Shown in pieces: positions 5,133-19,001 of a stretch of DNA of 64,000 nucleotides. Origin of the DNA: Alphaproteobacteria bacterium (GTDB lineage Bacteria > Pseudomonadota > Alphaproteobacteria > Puniceispirillales > Puniceispirillaceae); assembly GCA_022425485.1 (NCBI GenBank), contig JAKMFL010000033.1, forward strand, positions 1 through 64,000, given 5' to 3'. Each line of letters opens with the position of its first letter. The stretch's first letter is position 1. Both the position numbers and the translations under genes were made by a program. The notes under the pieces were generated by a model, which made no database searches, was not told the DNA's origin, and worked only from the letters and a program-made list of their open reading frames with translations.

Positions 5133-5711
5133 ATGTTCAGAAAAGCTTTTTTAGCGCTTTTATGTGTAACCAGTTTAATGGCCCCAGCACCGCTACTGGC
5201 AGGGCAACAGCAGATGAGCGTTTCCGCATTTGATTTCAGCTTTCCTTCTATCGAAGGCACTAACCTTAATTTATCCGATTATCAGGGGCGTGTGTTGTTG
5301 ATTGTTAACACCGCTTCGCGCTGCGGTTTTACAAGGCAATATAGTGCCCTGCAAAATCTTTGGTCTGCATACCGAAAGGAAGGGCTAGTGGTAATTGGCG
5401 TTCCATCAAATGATTTTGGTGGCCAAGAACTAGGTACAGAAGCAGAGGTAAAACAATTCTGTGAAGTGAATTTTGATATCGACTTCCCTATGACCGCTAT
5501 CACCGAAATCAAAGGTGCAGACGCACATGAATTTTACAAATGGGCAGGGGCGCAAGTTGGCATGTTGGGCAAACCAAAGTGGAATTTCCATAAATTTCTG
5601 GTGGGGCGAGATGGCCAAATTGCAGACTGGTTTTCTTCGGTAAGCGAGCCAGATAGTCCAAAATTCCGCAGCGCGATAGAACAGGCACTTGCCCAAAACA
5701 GCGCATCATAG
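5133..5711 (+). CDS. glutathione peroxidase family protein with N-terminal signal sequence
   Basis: NTASRCGFTRQY, GVPSNDFGGQE, WNFHKFLVGRDG; hydrophobic leader MFRKAFLALLCVTSLMAPAPLLA. Confidence 0.87.
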   Translation: MFRKAFLALLCVTSLMAPAPLLAGQQQMSVSAFDFSFPSIEGTNLNLSDYQGRVLLIVNTASRCGFTRQYSALQNLWSAYRKEGLVVIGVPSNDFGGQELGTEAEVKQFCEVNFDIDFPMTAITEIKGADAHEFYKWAGAQVGMLGKPKWNFHKFLVGRDGQIADWFSSVSEPDSPKFRSAIEQALAQNSAS

Positions 5712-9604: not shown

Positions 9605-10609
9605 CTACAATAATCCCCTGATTTTCTCTACCAAGGCCGCGTTAATTTGACGCGGCCCCATATCTAGACGATTTTTATGACGTCGTTGCCCGGGCAAGCG
9701 GATACCGTCAAGCTGAGACAAAGTTTGGATGAAAGCTTCATTATGTTCCTGCCAGCTATCACCCGCTATTAGTTTTGGGCTCATCGCTAGCACAAATTCA
9801 CCGCCCTTGGCTGGGCCACCATCATTATTGTCCTGCTGACCAGCTTCGTAAGAGAAATTATCCCCTGTCATACCCGCCGCCAGAAACTCTACCATCAGGG
9901 CAATTGCTGAGCCTTTATACCCACCAAAAGGAAGCAAAACGCCTTTGAGAATTTCTGCTGGATCATCTGATGGCTTGCCATCTGGCCCTAACCCAGTTCC
10001 AGGCGGCACTGCATGACCATCACGCGCCGCGATTTGCACATCCCCTTTTGCCAAAGTGGAAGTGGCCATGTCAAACACAATGGGGGTGTGGCCCGGACGT
10101 GGCCACGCAAAAGACAGAGGATTAGTGCCAAAAAAGGCTTGTGTTGCACCCGCGGGCGCAACAGTTGGTTTAAAGGCTGTACAGGCAAGACCCGCCAGCC
10201 CCTGTTCAGCCAGATATTCTGTTTCTGGCCACATCGCTGCAAAATGGAACGAATTAATAATTCGCATCACCGCAATACCCGTTTCAGAAGCTGCCTTTGC
10301 CAGCACCGGCAAACCCACCTCAAGGGCAAGCGGGGCATAACCATAGTCACCATCAACGGTGATGACAGAAGCTAAACTTTGTTCAATTTTTGGCGTGGCA
10401 TCGCCTTTCACTTTTCCAGAATTCAGCGAAGCGATGTATCCCGGCACCCGAAACAAGCCATGAGAGAGAGAACCATCCCGCTCTGCCCGAACAACTGTCC
10501 GCGCCAATGCAGCAGCATTTTCAGTAGAACAACCATGTTTGGTAAAAACACGCAAAGCCAAACTTTCAATGTCAGAAAGACTCATTTCTGTAGTTTCAAT
10601 TGCAGTCAT
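9605..10609 (-). CDS. malate/L-lactate dehydrogenase (Ldh2/DpkA-like) family oxidoreductase
   Basis: SHGLFRVPGYIASL, FGTNPLSFAWPR, VFDMATSTLAKGD, GGYKGSAIALMVE; start MTAIETTEM at 10609 has an upstream GAGG. Confidence 0.85.
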   Translation of the reverse strand: MTAIETTEMSLSDIESLALRVFTKHGCSTENAAALARTVVRAERDGSLSHGLFRVPGYIASLNSGKVKGDATPKIEQSLASVITVDGDYGYAPLALEVGLPVLAKAASETGIAVMRIINSFHFAAMWPETEYLAEQGLAGLACTAFKPTVAPAGATQAFFGTNPLSFAWPRPGHTPIVFDMATSTLAKGDVQIAARDGHAVPPGTGLGPDGKPSDDPAEILKGVLLPFGGYKGSAIALMVEFLAAGMTGDNFSYEAGQQDNNDGGPAKGGEFVLAMSPKLIAGDSWQEHNEAFIQTLSQLDGIRLPGQRRHKNRLDMGPRQINAALVEKIRGLL

Positions 10610-10762
10610 TTGTCTATTCCTCGAACCTGTTGTTTGTTTCTTGTATGTTATCCTGTGATAGTCACAAGCCATTTATTTTTTTAAAACACTACCTTGTCTG
10701 ACCATGGCTGTCTAATTTCAGCTATCGGTCAAGATGTCCTAATTACCTGCCGGCTATTCCTT

Positions 10763-10799
10763 ATCTACTAGTCATCATCTACTAGTCATCATCTACTAG
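10763..10799. repeat. 14-bp tandem repeat, about 2.6 copies, spanning the stop of the DUF3726-like gene
   Basis: atctactagtcatc x2 followed by atctactag. Confidence 0.95.
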
Positions 10800-11420
10800 G
10801 CCTGCACCTGCGCCTGACAGACGCGAGGCTTCTGTTTCTGGCACATAGGTTTGCATCGCCAATGCGTTTAGCCGCGTCCATACCGCATCCGAAACGACAC
10901 TATGGCCCGAAGCCACAAAGGACGGTGGCGGCGCGCTATCGCTAATCCCTACAACAAGCTTGCCAGAAATCTGCTGGCATGTTGCGACAGAGTCTACTGT
11001 CTCATCTGGTATATTAATCGGTGCTTCTAGCGCTTCACTCACAAGCCTAAACTGTCTTTGATAAGCTTGGCCGGCTTGCCATAACAAGCCAGCAAACATC
11101 ACCGGGTGGGCCAAACAAGCTATTTGAATTTCAGCGCCGCTATCTGCTGCCAAAAGCCAGTCAATTGACGCCACCCCTTCAAAAGCTGGACGGCATTGCG
11201 ATATCTGCAAAACACCCGCCTCAAGATGCAGGCCAAGCTGAATATCCTTTTTGTCTTGTGTGTCTGCAAGCAAGCTATCCAGAACGGTGCACCCCATCAT
11301 GCCCGCGCATTGCAACCAGCTAGTAGCAACCGCAATATCTTCGGCTCTATCCTGCAAGTAACCAGCCGCTAGACAGGCCTTTCTAGCTGTCTGATAAACC
11401 TCATTTGCGGAGACCTGCAT
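10782..11420 (-). CDS. uncharacterised protein, DUF3726-like
   Basis: MQVSANEVYQTARKACLAAGYLQDRAEDIAVATSWL resembles DUF3726 proteins from memory; no enzymatic motif. The ORF track start at 11456 would overlap the upstream gene. Confidence 0.6.
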   Translation of the reverse strand: MQVSANEVYQTARKACLAAGYLQDRAEDIAVATSWLQCAGMMGCTVLDSLLADTQDKKDIQLGLHLEAGVLQISQCRPAFEGVASIDWLLAADSGAEIQIACLAHPVMFAGLLWQAGQAYQRQFRLVSEALEAPINIPDETVDSVATCQQISGKLVVGISDSAPPPSFVASGHSVVSDAVWTRLNALAMQTYVPETEASRLSGAGAGLVDDD

Positions 11421-11440
11421 AATAAGACTAGACCCCGCTT

Positions 11441-13168
11441 TTAGCTGCTCATACAAGGGCGCAATGGGAACAACCAGTCATCTAAATCATGGGATGGGGC
11501 GGTTGCAAGATCAGCAGCCGTTGGCGCACCTTGATACAAGGTTATTCGAGTCCATTTATCTGATTTCGGATCAAATTTGCTTGCACCAAAAAAAGATAAT
11601 TTACAGCGCAGGAGGTCAATCGGCCGACAATGCGCCCCAACCAGATTATCACGAATCTCTCCATAGGGAAATTTATCAATGGTTTGAATGCGCCGAAGAA
11701 TATTTCTGAACTCTGGTGCGCGTAGCAAAAAAGCGGCGACCAGCTCATCTTCCTCTACCGTGGCGAGAGCCGATTTCAAGGCGCGGATATAGCCAGCAAT
11801 ATTAAAAGGCATTTCAAGCTCTGCGCCCGGCTCTTCATGGCGCAAGCCAAGACGCGGCTCTAGCTTGGCAGCTGACACATACCAGAATTGTGCGTCTGCA
11901 TCTGGGGCATTGAAATCTATATCCTCCACCCAATGATAATGGGCGTCTATTAAGGCCTTAACCTCACCAATACGCATATCCGGGATCAGGCGGGGCTGGG
12001 CATCCGTTGCCATGCAGTCTGCCAACATATCTACTTCTTCTGGCACCAGCTCTATAATAAGGGATACCAGTAATTCTTGCAGCTCTTCCGACCCCTCTTT
12101 TGCCCGTTCATTGAGATCAGCAAAGGGCGCTTTTTTTGCTAGGGGACGTGCCGATATATCCGCACATAACTTATCTAATTCAGCGCGAAGGATTTCAATA
12201 TTTTGCATCTGGGGCGTGTCTTCTACCTCCCATTCATAGCAATGCAGGCGGGCACGCTCCAGCAATGTGGTGACGCGCTGCAATTGGGCATTGCTAGCCG
12301 CATCCACCGCCAGCCCCCGTGCAAAAGCAACCTCGCGGGCCATAATCCAACTATTCAGCAAACAAGGATGCGTAACAAGGAACGGGGCCATACCCAGCCC
12401 CGTTGAATTACCAACCCCTAAATAGCGGCGATGCGCGTCTGATAAGCTAGCAGCCTTCTGGCCGCCCCGCTCTTTTGCACAATATTCAGCCAGCAGAAGC
12501 GTGAATTCACGAATCAAAAACACGGTCAGCATTTCCGCTTGAAATGCCCCTTCCAACCCGTCATAACCAGCGACTTTATCTCTATCGGCAATGCCAAATT
12601 TTCCATTACCATAAACAGCCGTCGTACGCATCAGATAGCCTGTTGCCGCCAGCGCCTCTGTATCTGGCTGCTGACCTTTGGCAAGCCTGTCCACCACATG
12701 ACGAAATAGCCGCAGGGATTTATTTGCCCGTGACAGCGTCAATATCCGCGCATCATAACGGCCAGCTTCTTGGCGTGTTACCTGCTCTGCTAGCTGGTCA
12801 ATATCCGCCAGAGACGGCACCCCATCAAATAGACAAAAGCTGGCATCCCACTGTGTTGCGATAACCCGGTCTGTACGCTCGCCATCCTCTATATCGCGGC
12901 TAAAGGCAATCAATGAATAAACACGGCCAGACAGCGCGAGGCTCAGCACCACATGGCCAAACCCGTTTTTATCCAACGCGCAAACAGGCATTTGCATCTT
13001 TGATTTTTGTGCTGCTAGCCTGCGGATCAGGACTCTCATAAAACTTAGTCGGTGCGGGAAAAATGCACCCATGCGTGATAAGCGCATCACGCTGTTATAG
13101 GAACGCAAAGGCGGCAAGGCGTCACCGCAAGCTAAATCACTATTTTTATGAAGAGAGGTTTTTGCCAT
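11441..13168 (-). CDS. uncharacterised 575-aa protein, no recognised domain
   Basis: Long ORF. Upstream stop TAG (13169-13171) is directly followed by its ATG. Segment RRYLGVGNSTGLGMAPFLVTHPCLLNSWI looks like a constrained core. Confidence 0.8.
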   Translation of the reverse strand: MAKTSLHKNSDLACGDALPPLRSYNSVMRLSRMGAFFPHRLSFMRVLIRRLAAQKSKMQMPVCALDKNGFGHVVLSLALSGRVYSLIAFSRDIEDGERTDRVIATQWDASFCLFDGVPSLADIDQLAEQVTRQEAGRYDARILTLSRANKSLRLFRHVVDRLAKGQQPDTEALAATGYLMRTTAVYGNGKFGIADRDKVAGYDGLEGAFQAEMLTVFLIREFTLLLAEYCAKERGGQKAASLSDAHRRYLGVGNSTGLGMAPFLVTHPCLLNSWIMAREVAFARGLAVDAASNAQLQRVTTLLERARLHCYEWEVEDTPQMQNIEILRAELDKLCADISARPLAKKAPFADLNERAKEGSEELQELLVSLIIELVPEEVDMLADCMATDAQPRLIPDMRIGEVKALIDAHYHWVEDIDFNAPDADAQFWYVSAAKLEPRLGLRHEEPGAELEMPFNIAGYIRALKSALATVEEDELVAAFLLRAPEFRNILRRIQTIDKFPYGEIRDNLVGAHCRPIDLLRCKLSFFGASKFDPKSDKWTRITLYQGAPTAADLATAPSHDLDDWLFPLRPCMSS

Positions 13169-14158
13169 CTAGCGCTGCCCACCAAAATTCTGGTCATAAA
13201 AACGTAGCCAGTTTCCGCCCATTATAGCGTCTATATCCTCTTGCGCAAAGCCAACATCGCGCAGGCCTGTTGCCAAATTAGGAAAATCCCTGATGCCTTG
13301 AAACCATGCAGGTTGATCAGGAAAGCCAGGATTAGATGCACTGCCTTCGCCAAAATCCGTTTCCCGTGACCAACGGCCATTGCGCATCCATTCTACCACA
13401 CTATCCGGCTGATTCTGACATAGATCAGAGCCGATCCCCAAAGCAGACACCCCATAACGTTCTGCGGCCTCTGCAATCATCTGACAGAAGCTCTCTAGGG
13501 TACAGTCACTGCCCCCTTTTAGGTGATGCGGATATAAAGAAAACCCGATCATGCCGCCGCTTTGGGTCAGCGCCTCTATCAAGGCATGCGATTTATTCCG
13601 GCGGGCTGGATGCCACCAGTCTGGATTGGCGTGCGTAATCGCTATTGGCCGCTCGGAAGCCTCTATCGCTTCTAAACTAGAGCGTTCTGCAGAATGGCTC
13701 ATATCAATAACCAGCCCAACCCGGTTCATTTCCTTAATAGCTTGTCTGCCAAAACGCGTTAGCCCCGGATCCTCAGCCTCATAACAGCCGGTCGCCAAAA
13801 GCGACTGATTATTGTAGGTCAGTTGCATAAAGCGTCCGCCTAGCTGATGCAGAATTTCAATTAGCCCGATATCATCTTCCATCGGCGCACAATTTTGAAA
13901 CCCATAAAAAATAGCTGTGCGGCCGCTAGCATGGGCAGCGCGTACGTCTTCGCCCGTGCGCCCAAACATCAACCTGTTCGGATGCGCTTCAATATAACGA
14001 TTCCAGCTAATCATATTTTCCACAGTCTGACGAAAATTTTCATGATAGCAAATGGTAACATGCACAGCCGCAAGATGGGCCACTGCCATTTCATCAAACA
14101 AGTCTGGCGACCAGTTAGCATATTGCAAATTATCAATAAAAAGCGGGGTCTGAGACAT
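13169..14158 (-). CDS. membrane dipeptidase (renal dipeptidase family, peptidase M19)
   Basis: MQLTYNNQSLLATGCYE, DMSHSAERSSLEAIEASERPIAITHANP, LGIGSDLCQ. Confidence 0.85.
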   Translation of the reverse strand: MSQTPLFIDNLQYANWSPDLFDEMAVAHLAAVHVTICYHENFRQTVENMISWNRYIEAHPNRLMFGRTGEDVRAAHASGRTAIFYGFQNCAPMEDDIGLIEILHQLGGRFMQLTYNNQSLLATGCYEAEDPGLTRFGRQAIKEMNRVGLVIDMSHSAERSSLEAIEASERPIAITHANPDWWHPARRNKSHALIEALTQSGGMIGFSLYPHHLKGGSDCTLESFCQMIAEAAERYGVSALGIGSDLCQNQPDSVVEWMRNGRWSRETDFGEGSASNPGFPDQPAWFQGIRDFPNLATGLRDVGFAQEDIDAIMGGNWLRFYDQNFGGQR

Positions 14159-14216: not shown

Positions 14217-15449
14217 TCAGCCTAATCTGGTCTCTAGCCAGCGAGCAAGCCCCAATAAGGCACTGTCCCGTCCTGTGGTAGCGGTTAGCTGGACACCAAC
14301 GCCCAACCCCTTTGGCCCCGATATTTGAAACCGCCCCGAAATAGGCAGGCTAATGCAAGGATAGCCCGTTAGACTCCACAAACAATTACAGACGGAATCG
14401 CCTGTACCTTCCTCAAAAACTGGGGCTTCCCCTGTTGCAGAAGCCGTTAACAGCCCGTCATATCCAGCCAGTAACCCGCCGAAATATAGGGCGGCTTCGT
14501 CGCGCTCAATCAGGGCTTTTTCATAATCTGATATAGCCACCTTCTGCCCGCGCTTTATCGCTGCCAGAATTTCTGCGCTCATCTGGCTTTCATGACTGCT
14601 CATAAGCGGGCCAATATTCTGGCAAATCTCAAAATCATAGATGGTTTTATGGGTTTCTAAATAGCGGGCTATCTCCGCCGCTGGGGCAGGCAGGATGTCT
14701 ATATGGCTCGGCAGCGCTGTTGCTATTTTTTGCAAGCCTTCATGCACATAACCTTGCACACGCGCACCGTATAACCCATCTAGATAGAGAAGCCTTGGCG
14801 GTGCGGCTGGCAGGTGATTAAGCGCATCTTCTAAATCTGGCTGGTTGGTGACCACGCTGCCTAATCTGGCTAGATAATTTAAATTACGCGCAAATATACC
14901 TACCTGATCAAGCGTTTGCGAAGTTTGCAAAACCCCTGCTCGGCTGATTGCTCCCCTCGTCGGCTTTAGCGCATGCACCCCGCAATAAGAGGCTGGGCGG
15001 ATAACCGACCCCCCTGTTTGTGTACCAATAGCCAGTTCAACTTGGCCAGCTGCAACGGCGGCGGCTGAACCAGATGAAGACCCGCCCGGCGAATGGCCAA
15101 GATTATGGGGGTTGCGTGTGATGCTTTTCTGCATAAAGGCAAATTCGGTCGTTACTGTTTTGCCAAGAATAGCTGCCCCTGCCATGCGCAAGGCTGTGAC
15201 CAGTTCGGCATCTGCCTCAGCAATACGCCCAGCAAATATAGGCGAGCCATAACAGCAAGCCATGCCAGCGACATCAATAATATCCTTCACGCCCACCGCC
15301 ATGCCGGCAAGCGCACCAGAGCTATTAGATGCTGCCTTTCTATCAAGGACAGCCCATGCTTTTATTTCTGCGTCTGAACGGTCGATTGCCGCAAGGCAGG
15401 CCGCAACATCCATTGGCGAATCTTCTGGCGAATCTTCTGGCATGACCAT
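14217..15449 (-). CDS. amidase signature family protein
   Basis: GVKDIIDVAGM, HSPGGSSSGSAAAVAAG, IGTQTGGSVIRPASYCGV. Confidence 0.87.
   Translation of the reverse strand: MVMPEDSPEDSPMDVAACLAAIDRSDAEIKAWAVLDRKAASNSSGALAGMAVGVKDIIDVAGMACCYGSPIFAGRIAEADAELVTALRMAGAAILGKTVTTEFAFMQKSITRNPHNLGHSPGGSSSGSAAAVAAGQVELAIGTQTGGSVIRPASYCGVHALKPTRGAISRAGVLQTSQTLDQVGIFARNLNYLARLGSVVTNQPDLEDALNHLPAAPPRLLYLDGLYGARVQGYVHEGLQKIATALPSHIDILPAPAAEIARYLETHKTIYDFEICQNIGPLMSSHESQMSAEILAAIKRGQKVAISDYEKALIERDEAALYFGGLLAGYDGLLTASATGEAPVFEEGTGDSVCNCLWSLTGYPCISLPISGRFQISGPKGLGVGVQLTATTGRDSALLGLARWLETRLG
15415..15438. repeat. 12-bp tandem duplication at the amidase N-terminus
   Basis: ggcgaatcttct x2, encoding PEDSPEDSP. 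Confidence 0.95.
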
Positions 15450-15483: not shown

Positions 15484-16593
15484 TTAGAAAACCACTACAG
15501 ATCGGATGGAGCTGCCCTCATGCATCAGATCGAAACCTTTATTAATATCTTCCAAAGACAGGGTATGGGTGATCATTGGGTCAATTTCGATGCGACCATC
15601 CAGATACCAATCAACAATCTTAGGCACATCTGTGCGCCCTCTTGCCCCGCCAAAAGCAGTACCGCGCCACGAACGGCCTGTTACCAGCTGGAACGGACGC
15701 GTACTAATCTCTTTGCCTGCGCCTGCCACACCGATAATAATGGATTCGCCCCACCCCTTATGGGCGCATTCCAACGCCACACGCATCACTTCAGTATTGC
15801 CGATACATTCAAAGCTATAATCTGCACCCCCATCCGTAAGCGCTACCAAATGGTTGGTGAGGTCGCCAGAAACTTTGGAAGGATTCACAAAATCAGTCAT
15901 GCCAAATTGGCGACCCCAGCTTTCCTTGTCATCATTTAAATCCACGCCAACAATTTGACTAGCCCCTATCATGCGCAGACCTTGAATGACATTTAGCCCA
16001 ATCCCGCCTAAACCAAAAACGACCGCCCGGCATCCGGGCTCAGCTTTGGCAGTATTGATAACCGCGCCAATACCTGTGGTCACCCCGCAGCCGATATAGC
16101 AAATTTTGTCAAATGGCGCTTCTTTGTTCACCTTCGCCAAAGCGATTTCAGGCAGAACGGTAAAGTTTGAAAAAGTAGAAGTGCCCATATAATGATGCAC
16201 TGATTGCCCTTTATAGGAAAAGCGAGACGTGCCATCTGGCATCAGTCCCTGACCTTGTGTCGTGCGTATAGCCTGACAAAGATTAGTTTTAGGATGCAGG
16301 CAATAATCACATTCGCGGCATTCTGGCGTATAGAGCGGTATCACATGATCGCCCGCAACAAGAGAAGTGACCCCAGCGCCAACCTCACGCACAATGCCAG
16401 CCCCCTCATGGCCTAGAATAGCCGGAAACAGCCCTTCAGGATCAGCGCCTGACAGCGTAAACTCATCTGTGTGGCAAATGCCTGTCGCCATGATTTCAAC
16501 AAGAACTTCGCCTTGTTTTGGGCCTTCAAGATCCAGCTCGACTATCTCAAGCGGCTGTCCAGCTTCAAAAGCAATTGCAGCTCTGGTTTTCAT
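15484..16593 (-). CDS. adhC: S-(hydroxymethyl)glutathione dehydrogenase / class III alcohol dehydrogenase
   Basis: [68 protein letters not shown]. Confidence 0.94.
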
Positions 16594-17504: not shown

Positions 17505-19001
17505 TTATTTCGTGTGCGGGATAACAAATTCCGCCCCTTTGGAAATTGAATCTGGCCAGCGTTGCATCACAGATTTCTGCTTGGTATAGAACTGCACCGC
17601 TTCATTGCCAAAGGCGTGCAAATCGCCAAATAATGACTGCTTCCATCCCCCAAAACCATGCCATGCCATCGGCACGGGTATCGGCACATTGACGCCGACC
17701 ATACCCACCTGTATCTGGCGCGAAAACTCGCGTGCGGTATCGCCGTCAGAGGTAAACACAGAAACGCCATTGCCATAGCGATGGTTATTAATCATCTCAA
17801 TTCCGTCTGCCGAGTTGGCCACCCTAACGCAAGACAGCACAGGGCCAAAAATCTCTTCTTGGTAAATCGACATCTCTGGGGTGACATGATCAAATAAACT
17901 TCCCCCCATGAAATAGCCTTGATTATGGCCCGGCACAGATACCCCGCGCCCATCTACAACAAGCTCAGCGCCTTCTTGGACACCTTTTTCGATCATGGTG
18001 GTAATGCGTTCATGCGCAGCAGAAGAAACAATTGGGCCCATTTCGGCATCTAGCTCCATGCCGTTTTTCACCTTCAAGGCCTTTGCCCGTTCGGCTAGCT
18101 GTGGGACAATTTTGTCACCAACATCCCCGACCAAGACAGCAACAGAAATCGCCATACAACGTTCACCAGCAGAACCATAAGCAGAACCAATTAAGGCATC
18201 TACCGTCTTGTCCATATCAGCATCTGGCATCACCATCATATGATTTTTTGCACCGCCCAGCGCTTGTACGCGCTTCCCGTTTTCTGCACCCTTGGTGTAA
18301 ATGTAATGCGCAATTGGCGTAGAACCAACAAAGGATACTGCCGAAATCGCTTGATTTTCCAAGATAGCATCTACCGATTCCTTGTCCCCCTGTATAACGC
18401 TAAACACCCCCTCAGGAAGACCCGCTTCAGCGAGCAAATCTGCCATCATCAGCGATACAGTAGGGTCGGTTGGGCTAGGCTTTAAAATGAAACAATTGCC
18501 AGTTGCTATCGCTAGCGGGAACATCCACATCGGCACCATCACTGGAAAGTTAAATGGTGTGATGCCAGAAACAATGCCCAGCGGCTGCCGGAAAGTAAAA
18601 TTATCAATACCTGTTGACGCTTGGGCAGAATACTCCCCCTTCAGCAAGGCTGGAATACCGCAGGCAAATTCAACAACCTCAATGCCGCGCTCCACCTCAC
18701 CACATGCATCGGTAAAGACCTTGCCATGCTCAGAGGTAATGGCTTCAGCCAGTTTTTCTTTATCACGGCGAACCAATTCAAGAAATTTGAACATCACCCG
18801 CGCACGCCGTACTGGCGGGGTTGCGGCCCAAGATGGGAATATTTTTCTGGCCGCTTCAACAGCCTCATCCACATCCTGTGCTGTTCCCATAACAACTTCG
18901 CCTTTTTTCTCACCAAGCGCAGGATTATAGATATCTTGCATTCTTGTAGATGCACCCTTTGTCTGTTTGCCCGCGATATAGTGAAGAGCTGTATCTGTCA
19001 T
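17505..19001 (-). CDS. mmsA: CoA-acylating methylmalonate-semialdehyde dehydrogenase (MmsA/IolA family)
   Basis: Aldehyde dehydrogenase fold; [51 protein letters not shown]. Confidence 0.93.

Follow-up and report, generated by a model that had tools for sequence, protein, structure and literature searches.

Trigonelline is degraded in Acinetobacter through the tgn pathway, in which a flavin monooxygenase and its reductase cleave the ring to an N-formyl-N-methyl semialdehyde that is then processed by an aldehyde dehydrogenase (ALDH) and by hydrolysis. The catabolism of homarine (N-methylpicolinate), an abundant betaine of plankton, was reportedly described by Ferrer-Gonzalez et al. in 2026 in Nat Microbiol, with an operon said to be named homABCDER. 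Homarine is one of the osmolytes that diatoms contain in high concentration, and it can be depleted by a model roseobacter in a matter of hours (PMC12817926). A 2026 article (PMC13390433) shows that in Ruegeria pomeroyi the genes mgdABCD for N-methylglutamate dehydrogenase (Mgd) are preceded by the AraC-type regulator gene tmaR, and it cites a report involving Mgd in homarine catabolism. Here we have analyzed by computation a locus at positions 9,605 to 14,158 of a 64,000-nucleotide stretch of DNA (the window; contig JAKMFL010000033.1, positions 1 to 64,000, assembly GCA_022425485.1) from an alphaproteobacterium of the family Puniceispirillaceae. The locus encodes an M19-family protein, a 575-aa protein (U575), a DUF3726 protein and an oxidoreductase of the Ldh2 family (type 2 malate/lactate dehydrogenases). 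The reading that we favor, as probable though far from assured, is that the substrate of this module is an N-methylated pyridinium betaine, most likely homarine, and its product N-methylglutamate, from which Mgd encoded elsewhere would then produce glutamate and a one-carbon unit, the locus being the SAR116 version of a widespread module.

A first-pass annotation had proposed a conserved catabolic module holding two proteins of unknown function, and the conservation of the M19, U575 and DUF3726 genes (the triad) across lineages supported this proposal. The triad, with its adjacency kept, was found in SAR116, SAR11, Rhodobacteraceae, rhizobia and some Gammaproteobacteria. Within the same family, 54 of 61 genomes encoded U575 (27 of the 28 near-complete ones), as did 53 of 386 sampled alphaproteobacterial genomes; it also occurred in some genomes from other classes of the phylum, including Gammaproteobacteria such as Vibrio, and in 168 plasmid records, mostly from Sinorhizobium and Phaeobacter. 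The M19 gene lay directly upstream of U575 at 63 of 91 loci, most commonly separated from it by -4 to +3 nt, an arrangement far beyond chance. Among the 386 genomes DUF3726 (PF12525) occurred in 43, all of them within the 53 carrying U575 (Fisher P = 8e-48, relatedness uncorrected), and the listed DUF3726 places adjoined U575; therefore the two proteins behave as obligate partners. An Ldh2 gene was located within four genes of U575 at 22 of the 91 loci and an ALDH gene at 23 of them. The four-gene unit first described was in this way retained for the triad but not for Ldh2, which was a frequent accessory drawn from two divergent clades.

Complete clusters, comprising genes for a LysR regulator, ALDH, M19, a betaine transporter, U575, DUF3726 and Ldh2, were found in named roseobacters and rhizobia. 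The order in Ruegeria sp. TM1040 was LysR, ALDH, M19, BCCT transporter, U575, DUF3726 and Ldh2; in Aminobacter, Pararhizobium and a plasmid recorded as Roseateles sp. XES5 it was LysR, ALDH, M19, U575, DUF3726, Ldh2 and an OpuABC-type betaine transporter, and in Alisedimentitalea Ldh2 was followed by BCCT. In Phaeobacter inhibens DSM 17395, the part formed by ALDH, M19, U575 and DUF3726 adjoined the genes of dimethylsulfoniopropionate demethylation. The best models for the cluster ALDH were 2,5-dioxovalerate and alpha-ketoglutarate-semialdehyde dehydrogenases (five-carbon acid semialdehydes), both matched below their cut-offs, and the XES5 cluster was accompanied by purU and folD for one-carbon units.

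A four-subunit operon of the sarcosine-oxidase type (beta, delta, alpha and gamma; SoxBDAG type) with an AraC-type regulator adjoined the cluster in TM1040 and XES5. To decide whether the TM1040 operon encodes Mgd or a sarcosine oxidase, the gene gmaS, which marks the N-methylglutamate pathway, was located in 17 Rhodobacteraceae genomes, together with the beta-subunit (SoxB) homologues of the same genomes. SoxB proteins from four genomes with gmaS on the same contig at a distance of 1-17 kb (G699, G588, G296 and G628) fell into one clade with their counterparts from TM1040 and genome G370, at 77-82% identity to the TM1040 protein (support 87/89 and 99/96); a second SoxB clade stood at 66-71% and a third at ~50%. 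As an exception, the gmaS-linked SoxB homologue of one genome (G703) fell outside this Mgd clade. In G370 the Mgd-clade gene (C2:144293-145540) was situated ~6 kb from the U575 cluster (ALDH at C2:151416) and gmaS was absent from the genome; therefore, Mgd is most simply explained there by the cluster. N-methylglutamate is proposed as the product because an Mgd-clade operon adjoins the cluster in TM1040 and in a second roseobacter, and homarine is preferred as the substrate because Mgd has been reported in its catabolism.

The Mgd-clade linkage and the betaine transporters would fit equally well with another N-methylated betaine ending in N-methylglutamate, namely proline betaine or hydroxyproline betaine degraded via N-methylproline, with U575 and DUF3726 acting on a five-membered ring and ALDH on N-methylglutamate semialdehyde. 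The ALDH of alpha-ketoglutarate-semialdehyde type, and an Ldh2 of the type of DpkA (delta1-piperideine-2-carboxylate reductase), are also similar to enzymes that degrade proline and hydroxyproline. However, the annotation of the clusters examined showed neither a Rieske nor any other demethylase of the known stachydrine pathway, such a route would leave an N-formyl hydrolase without a function, and homarine is, besides methylamines, the only published link of Mgd that we found; we regard this alternative as rather unlikely.

With homarine as substrate, the first step would be the opening of the ring at C5-C6 by U575 and its obligate partner DUF3726, giving an N-formyl-N-methyl C5 semialdehyde; cleavage at this position would yield precisely the carbon skeleton of glutamate, made up of C2-C5 and the carboxylate, C6 being left as the N-formyl group. 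ALDH would then oxidize the C5 semialdehyde to the acid, a step for which the window lineage would need another enzyme, the atypical M19 protein would remove the N-formyl group as formate, and finally the DpkA-like Ldh2 would reduce the N-methylimine of 2-oxoglutarate (enamine/imine) to N-methylglutamate. Such a scheme would account for every recurrent gene, for purU and folD in XES5, and for Mgd. We infer the substrate, the order of the steps and the activity of each protein from these computed relationships.

The M19 protein belonged to its family (curated cut-off of PF01244, 26 bits), but, contrary to the dipeptidase activity first ascribed to it, it was without metal ligands by which dipeptidases are defined. 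IDNLQ replaced the N-terminal HxD motif and GFQN replaced GxEG, and these changes were conserved (as IDxLQ and GxQN) throughout the subfamily alignment, in which two metal-binding His (DxSH and THA) and the active-site Asp (GSD) were kept invariant. The M19 amidohydrolase 2i5g presented the same replacement of metal ligands (GFQN, no HxD). Because the HxD metal motif is missing and a Gln stands in place of the bridging Glu, the protein cannot be classed as an ordinary dipeptidase, and annotating this subfamily as "membrane dipeptidase" is misleading; the M19 protein is the probable N-formyl/enamide hydrolase of the pathway. With regard to the Ldh2 protein, its SHG motif (S70-H71-G72) was invariant in the alignment and is shared with the DpkA / N-methyl-L-amino-acid dehydrogenases (1wtj, 2cwf and 2cwh); the window protein was 45% identical to DpkA (1wtj) and the roseobacter cluster Ldh2 36%, with 40% identity between the two Ldh2 proteins. 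The earlier assignment to the DpkA kind (cyclic-imine or N-methyl-amino-acid reductases) appeared sound on this basis. Membership of the M19 and Ldh2 families would also agree with a pathway for a cyclic imine, a D-amino acid or a dipeptide, with a genuine M19 dipeptidase freeing an amino acid for Ldh2; nevertheless, the missing metal ligands, and the recurrence beside the module of betaine or polyamine transporters and of no peptide transporter, make such a pathway highly improbable. Betaine transporters, an Mgd of the gmaS-linked clade and a C5-semialdehyde dehydrogenase favor an N-methylated betaine, most likely homarine, over the dipeptide, cyclic or D-amino-acid-derived substrate initially suggested.

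No match of U575 to a characterized family was found: Pfam and NCBIfam gave no family, and comparisons with PDB sequences (phmmer and profile) and of the predicted structure with PDB folds (Foldseek) returned only noise. Profile comparison of U575 with Ldh2 yielded nothing, and no cofactor motif was recognizable. The AF2 model reached a pLDDT of 80.7 and a pTM of 0.86, and the most conserved motifs (DRVIA, GNGKFG, NSTGLGMAPF and KFDPKSDKW) included loops modeled with low confidence, as might be expected if these were ordered by a ligand or a partner. DUF3726 scored 40.4 bits with its Pfam model (cut-off 22.1), and the top 27 Foldseek matches of its AF2 model (pLDDT 86.5) were all Ldh2-family dehydrogenases with probability 1.00; at E <= 0.001 the 14 PDB matches were also all of this family, with a TM of ~0.45 of the query. 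An independent profile comparison aligned the first 42 residues of DUF3726 with the Ldh2 N-terminus (hhalign E 1.3e-4, the match being confined to that region). The folds are alike, but Ldh2 proteins have ~340 aa in contrast with 212 aa in DUF3726, which appears without the cofactor (NAD(P)) domain, shows no His in the alignment at the SHG position of Ldh2, and terminates in a tail of its own, near-invariant and disordered, AGAGL(T/V)D(N/D)D. DUF3726 is accordingly predicted to adopt a shortened version of the Ldh2 fold, followed by an invariant C-terminal tail; our literature search found no paper on this family. We tentatively suggest, as a possibility that we hold less likely than the conversion of homarine itself, that U575 and DUF3726 constitute a new two-subunit enzyme, composed of a catalytic protein of new fold and a pseudo-Ldh2 subunit whose tail would reach into the active site, which would dearomatize and open N-methylpyridinium rings without a recognizable cofactor motif in some of the ocean's most abundant bacteria.

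Several results weigh against homarine conversion or against its extension to the window. One genome (G205) contained ALDH, M19, transporter, U575 and DUF3726 yet no SoxB of the Mgd clade, and a SoxA or SoxB gene was located within the inspected stretch at only 4 of 66 non-SAR11 loci. Since U575 has no recognizable cofactor motif, the idea that the ring is opened oxidatively is conjecture, and the identity of the clusters with the published homarine operon is presumed from the Mgd link. No LysR regulator, transporter or ALDH gene was found beside the window module. The cluster ALDH was lacking in the window genome (best match ~33% identity), in two close relatives, in two other SAR116 genera and in SAR11 Ia. 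The window Ldh2 was only 35-40% identical to that of roseobacter clusters and may represent a separate recruitment. As for other SAR116 genera, some possess the cluster ALDH. The window does encode an aldehyde dehydrogenase at 17505-19001; we discarded it as a candidate for the pathway ALDH, since it is a methylmalonate-semialdehyde dehydrogenase (652 vs. 448.5 bits), 29% identical to the cluster ALDH. With gmaS the window genome gave only a sub-cut-off match to a glutamine synthetase. It encodes two SoxB homologues; in favor of homarine conversion, the one on contig C23 grouped (100/98) with SoxB proteins encoded near the module in two other genomes (G041 and G211), but outside the gmaS-linked clade. 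Because the window lineage lacks the cluster ALDH, we can only infer an identical function for the window; the same function as in complete clusters is plausible there, with less certainty than for those clusters.

A second explanation assigns to the triad a single general reaction that can act on various N-alkyl heterocycles or amides, the substrate varying by lineage: homarine in roseobacters and a different compound in SAR11, in rhizobia and in the window lineage. The missing ALDH of the window lineage and SAR11 Ia is in line with it, and so are the second U575 copies that some Rhodobacteraceae carry in the absence of M19 and, in addition, the triads of a rhizobial branch. In this branch (Sinorhizobium and Neorhizobium), a U575 homologue with 27-32% identity preceded the genes for a 240-aa protein and for an M19 in which the motifs were altered in the same way; the triads (L165, 10944-14390; L166, 9962-13358) were accompanied by genes for an IclR regulator, a PotABCD-type transporter and RidA, to which S. 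meliloti adds a class III aminotransferase and a succinate-semialdehyde-type dehydrogenase. This gene content suggests that the triad chemistry is used for another substrate in rhizobia. Conversely, U575 proteins of the main branch were 40-60% identical and most of their conserved motifs were unchanged, which favors a single reaction; we consider lineage-specific substrates unlikely, if slightly less so than proline betaine. The rhizobial branch was also considered simply as the trigonelline genes, and this was rejected, the class III aminotransferase of S. meliloti arguing against it; no literature text was found linking trigonelline to the triad in S. meliloti.

The four open reading frames (ORFs) of the locus all run leftward, as described before, but only the triad is tightly spaced (Table 1). 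The stop codon TAG of M19 abuts the ATG of U575 (TAGATG), in agreement with the first-pass annotation. That annotation also placed the start of DUF3726 at or inside the 3' end of U575, which is true of the mechanical TTG start; alignment to relatives indicated the ATG, located 20 nt after the U575 stop, as the likely start, and the two genes probably do not overlap in the window genome. In many relatives they overlap by ATGA. The gap between the stop of DUF3726 and the Ldh2 ORF was 109 nt, or 172 nt from the Ldh2 start supported by relatives; because of this gap, three genes are tightly coupled and Ldh2 is not.

Table 1. Positions of the module genes and adjacent features in the window
Feature	Coordinates	Strand	Basis
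M19-family protein, 329 aa	13169..14158	-	Pfam PF01244, 239.9 bits; nearest PDB 2i5g; subfamily alignment
U575 (575-aa protein, family and fold unmatched), core protein of the module	11441..13168	-	~110 invariant residues; AF2 model
DUF3726 protein, 212 aa from ATG 11420 (TTG ORF start 11456)	10782..11420	-	PF12525; alignment; AF2/Foldseek; hhalign; co-occurrence
Ldh2-family oxidoreductase, DpkA-like, 334 aa from likely ATG 10609	9605..10672	-	PF02615, 300.7 bits; identity to 1wtj; start alignment
Amidase-signature protein, 58 nt upstream of M19	14217..15449	-	PF01425; synteny
14-nt tandem repeat, ~3 copies, spanning the DUF3726 stop codon, the 3' end of the gene and the gap before Ldh2	10754..10799	none	

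The amidase gene is nearer to the triad than Ldh2 and was missing from the module as first annotated; its synteny was confined to the same genus and several sister genera, and it is possibly a lineage-specific accessory. Two genes upstream of M19, at 15484-16593, an S-(hydroxymethyl)glutathione dehydrogenase (formaldehyde detoxification) was encoded, syntenic in sister genera; it could serve N-methyl oxidation, but its position may be a coincidence. A promoter scan gave matches no more frequent than in shuffled sequence.

Some further loci deserve mention. The U575-DUF3726 copies without M19 of some Rhodobacteraceae (L113, L156 and L159) occurred in a housekeeping setting, with TamA/TamB-like and truA-like genes. 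A contig filed under a metagenome-assembled genome (MAG) of the gammaproteobacterial Porticoccaceae (L015, PCCK01000066.1) shared its gene order with two SAR116 loci (L143 and L144) and was probably mis-binned. In a Tabrizicola MAG (L045, 4561-6149), U575 was split by an apparent frameshift near 5330. The U575 cluster of a plasmid labeled Roseateles (L162, NZ_CP084753.1, UNVERIFIED_ORG) was most like those of Shinella and Aminobacter, and the organism label of this record may be wrong.

Compared with described systems, the proposed homarine route follows the logic of the tgn pathway (ring cleavage, ALDH, hydrolysis) with different proteins: U575 and DUF3726 show no recognizable relation to the tgn proteins, and no flavin monooxygenase or reductase family was found among the module proteins in Pfam and NCBIfam. 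In dimethylglycine clusters pepD, a predicted dipeptidase gene, stands beside dgcAB and is linked to N-methyl amine catabolism; no dgcAB gene lies beside the module in the window. The five enzyme genes plus LysR of the complete clusters would fit the name homABCDER of the homarine operon, and the homarine pathway likewise belongs to environmental bacteria and involves Mgd; the window lineage differs in having no ALDH, regulator or transporter gene beside the module. The pathway, initially taken as undescribed, is doubtful as such, since the 2026 paper on homarine catabolism probably describes it, and the window would probably be a member lacking the cluster ALDH and the regulator. The ring-opening reaction of U575-DUF3726 seems to be left unexplained. 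As far as can be told, the obligate pairing of these two proteins, the Ldh2-like fold and tail of DUF3726, the lack of any fold match for U575, the degenerate site of M19 and the Mgd-clade linkage are new with respect to those systems. DUF3726 gains a fold and a partner, and the pair possibly represents a new ring-opening chemistry. With the triad in nearly all SAR116 genomes and in many of SAR11, knowledge of the reaction of the pair would provide a marker for how a major marine nitrogen compound is turned over.

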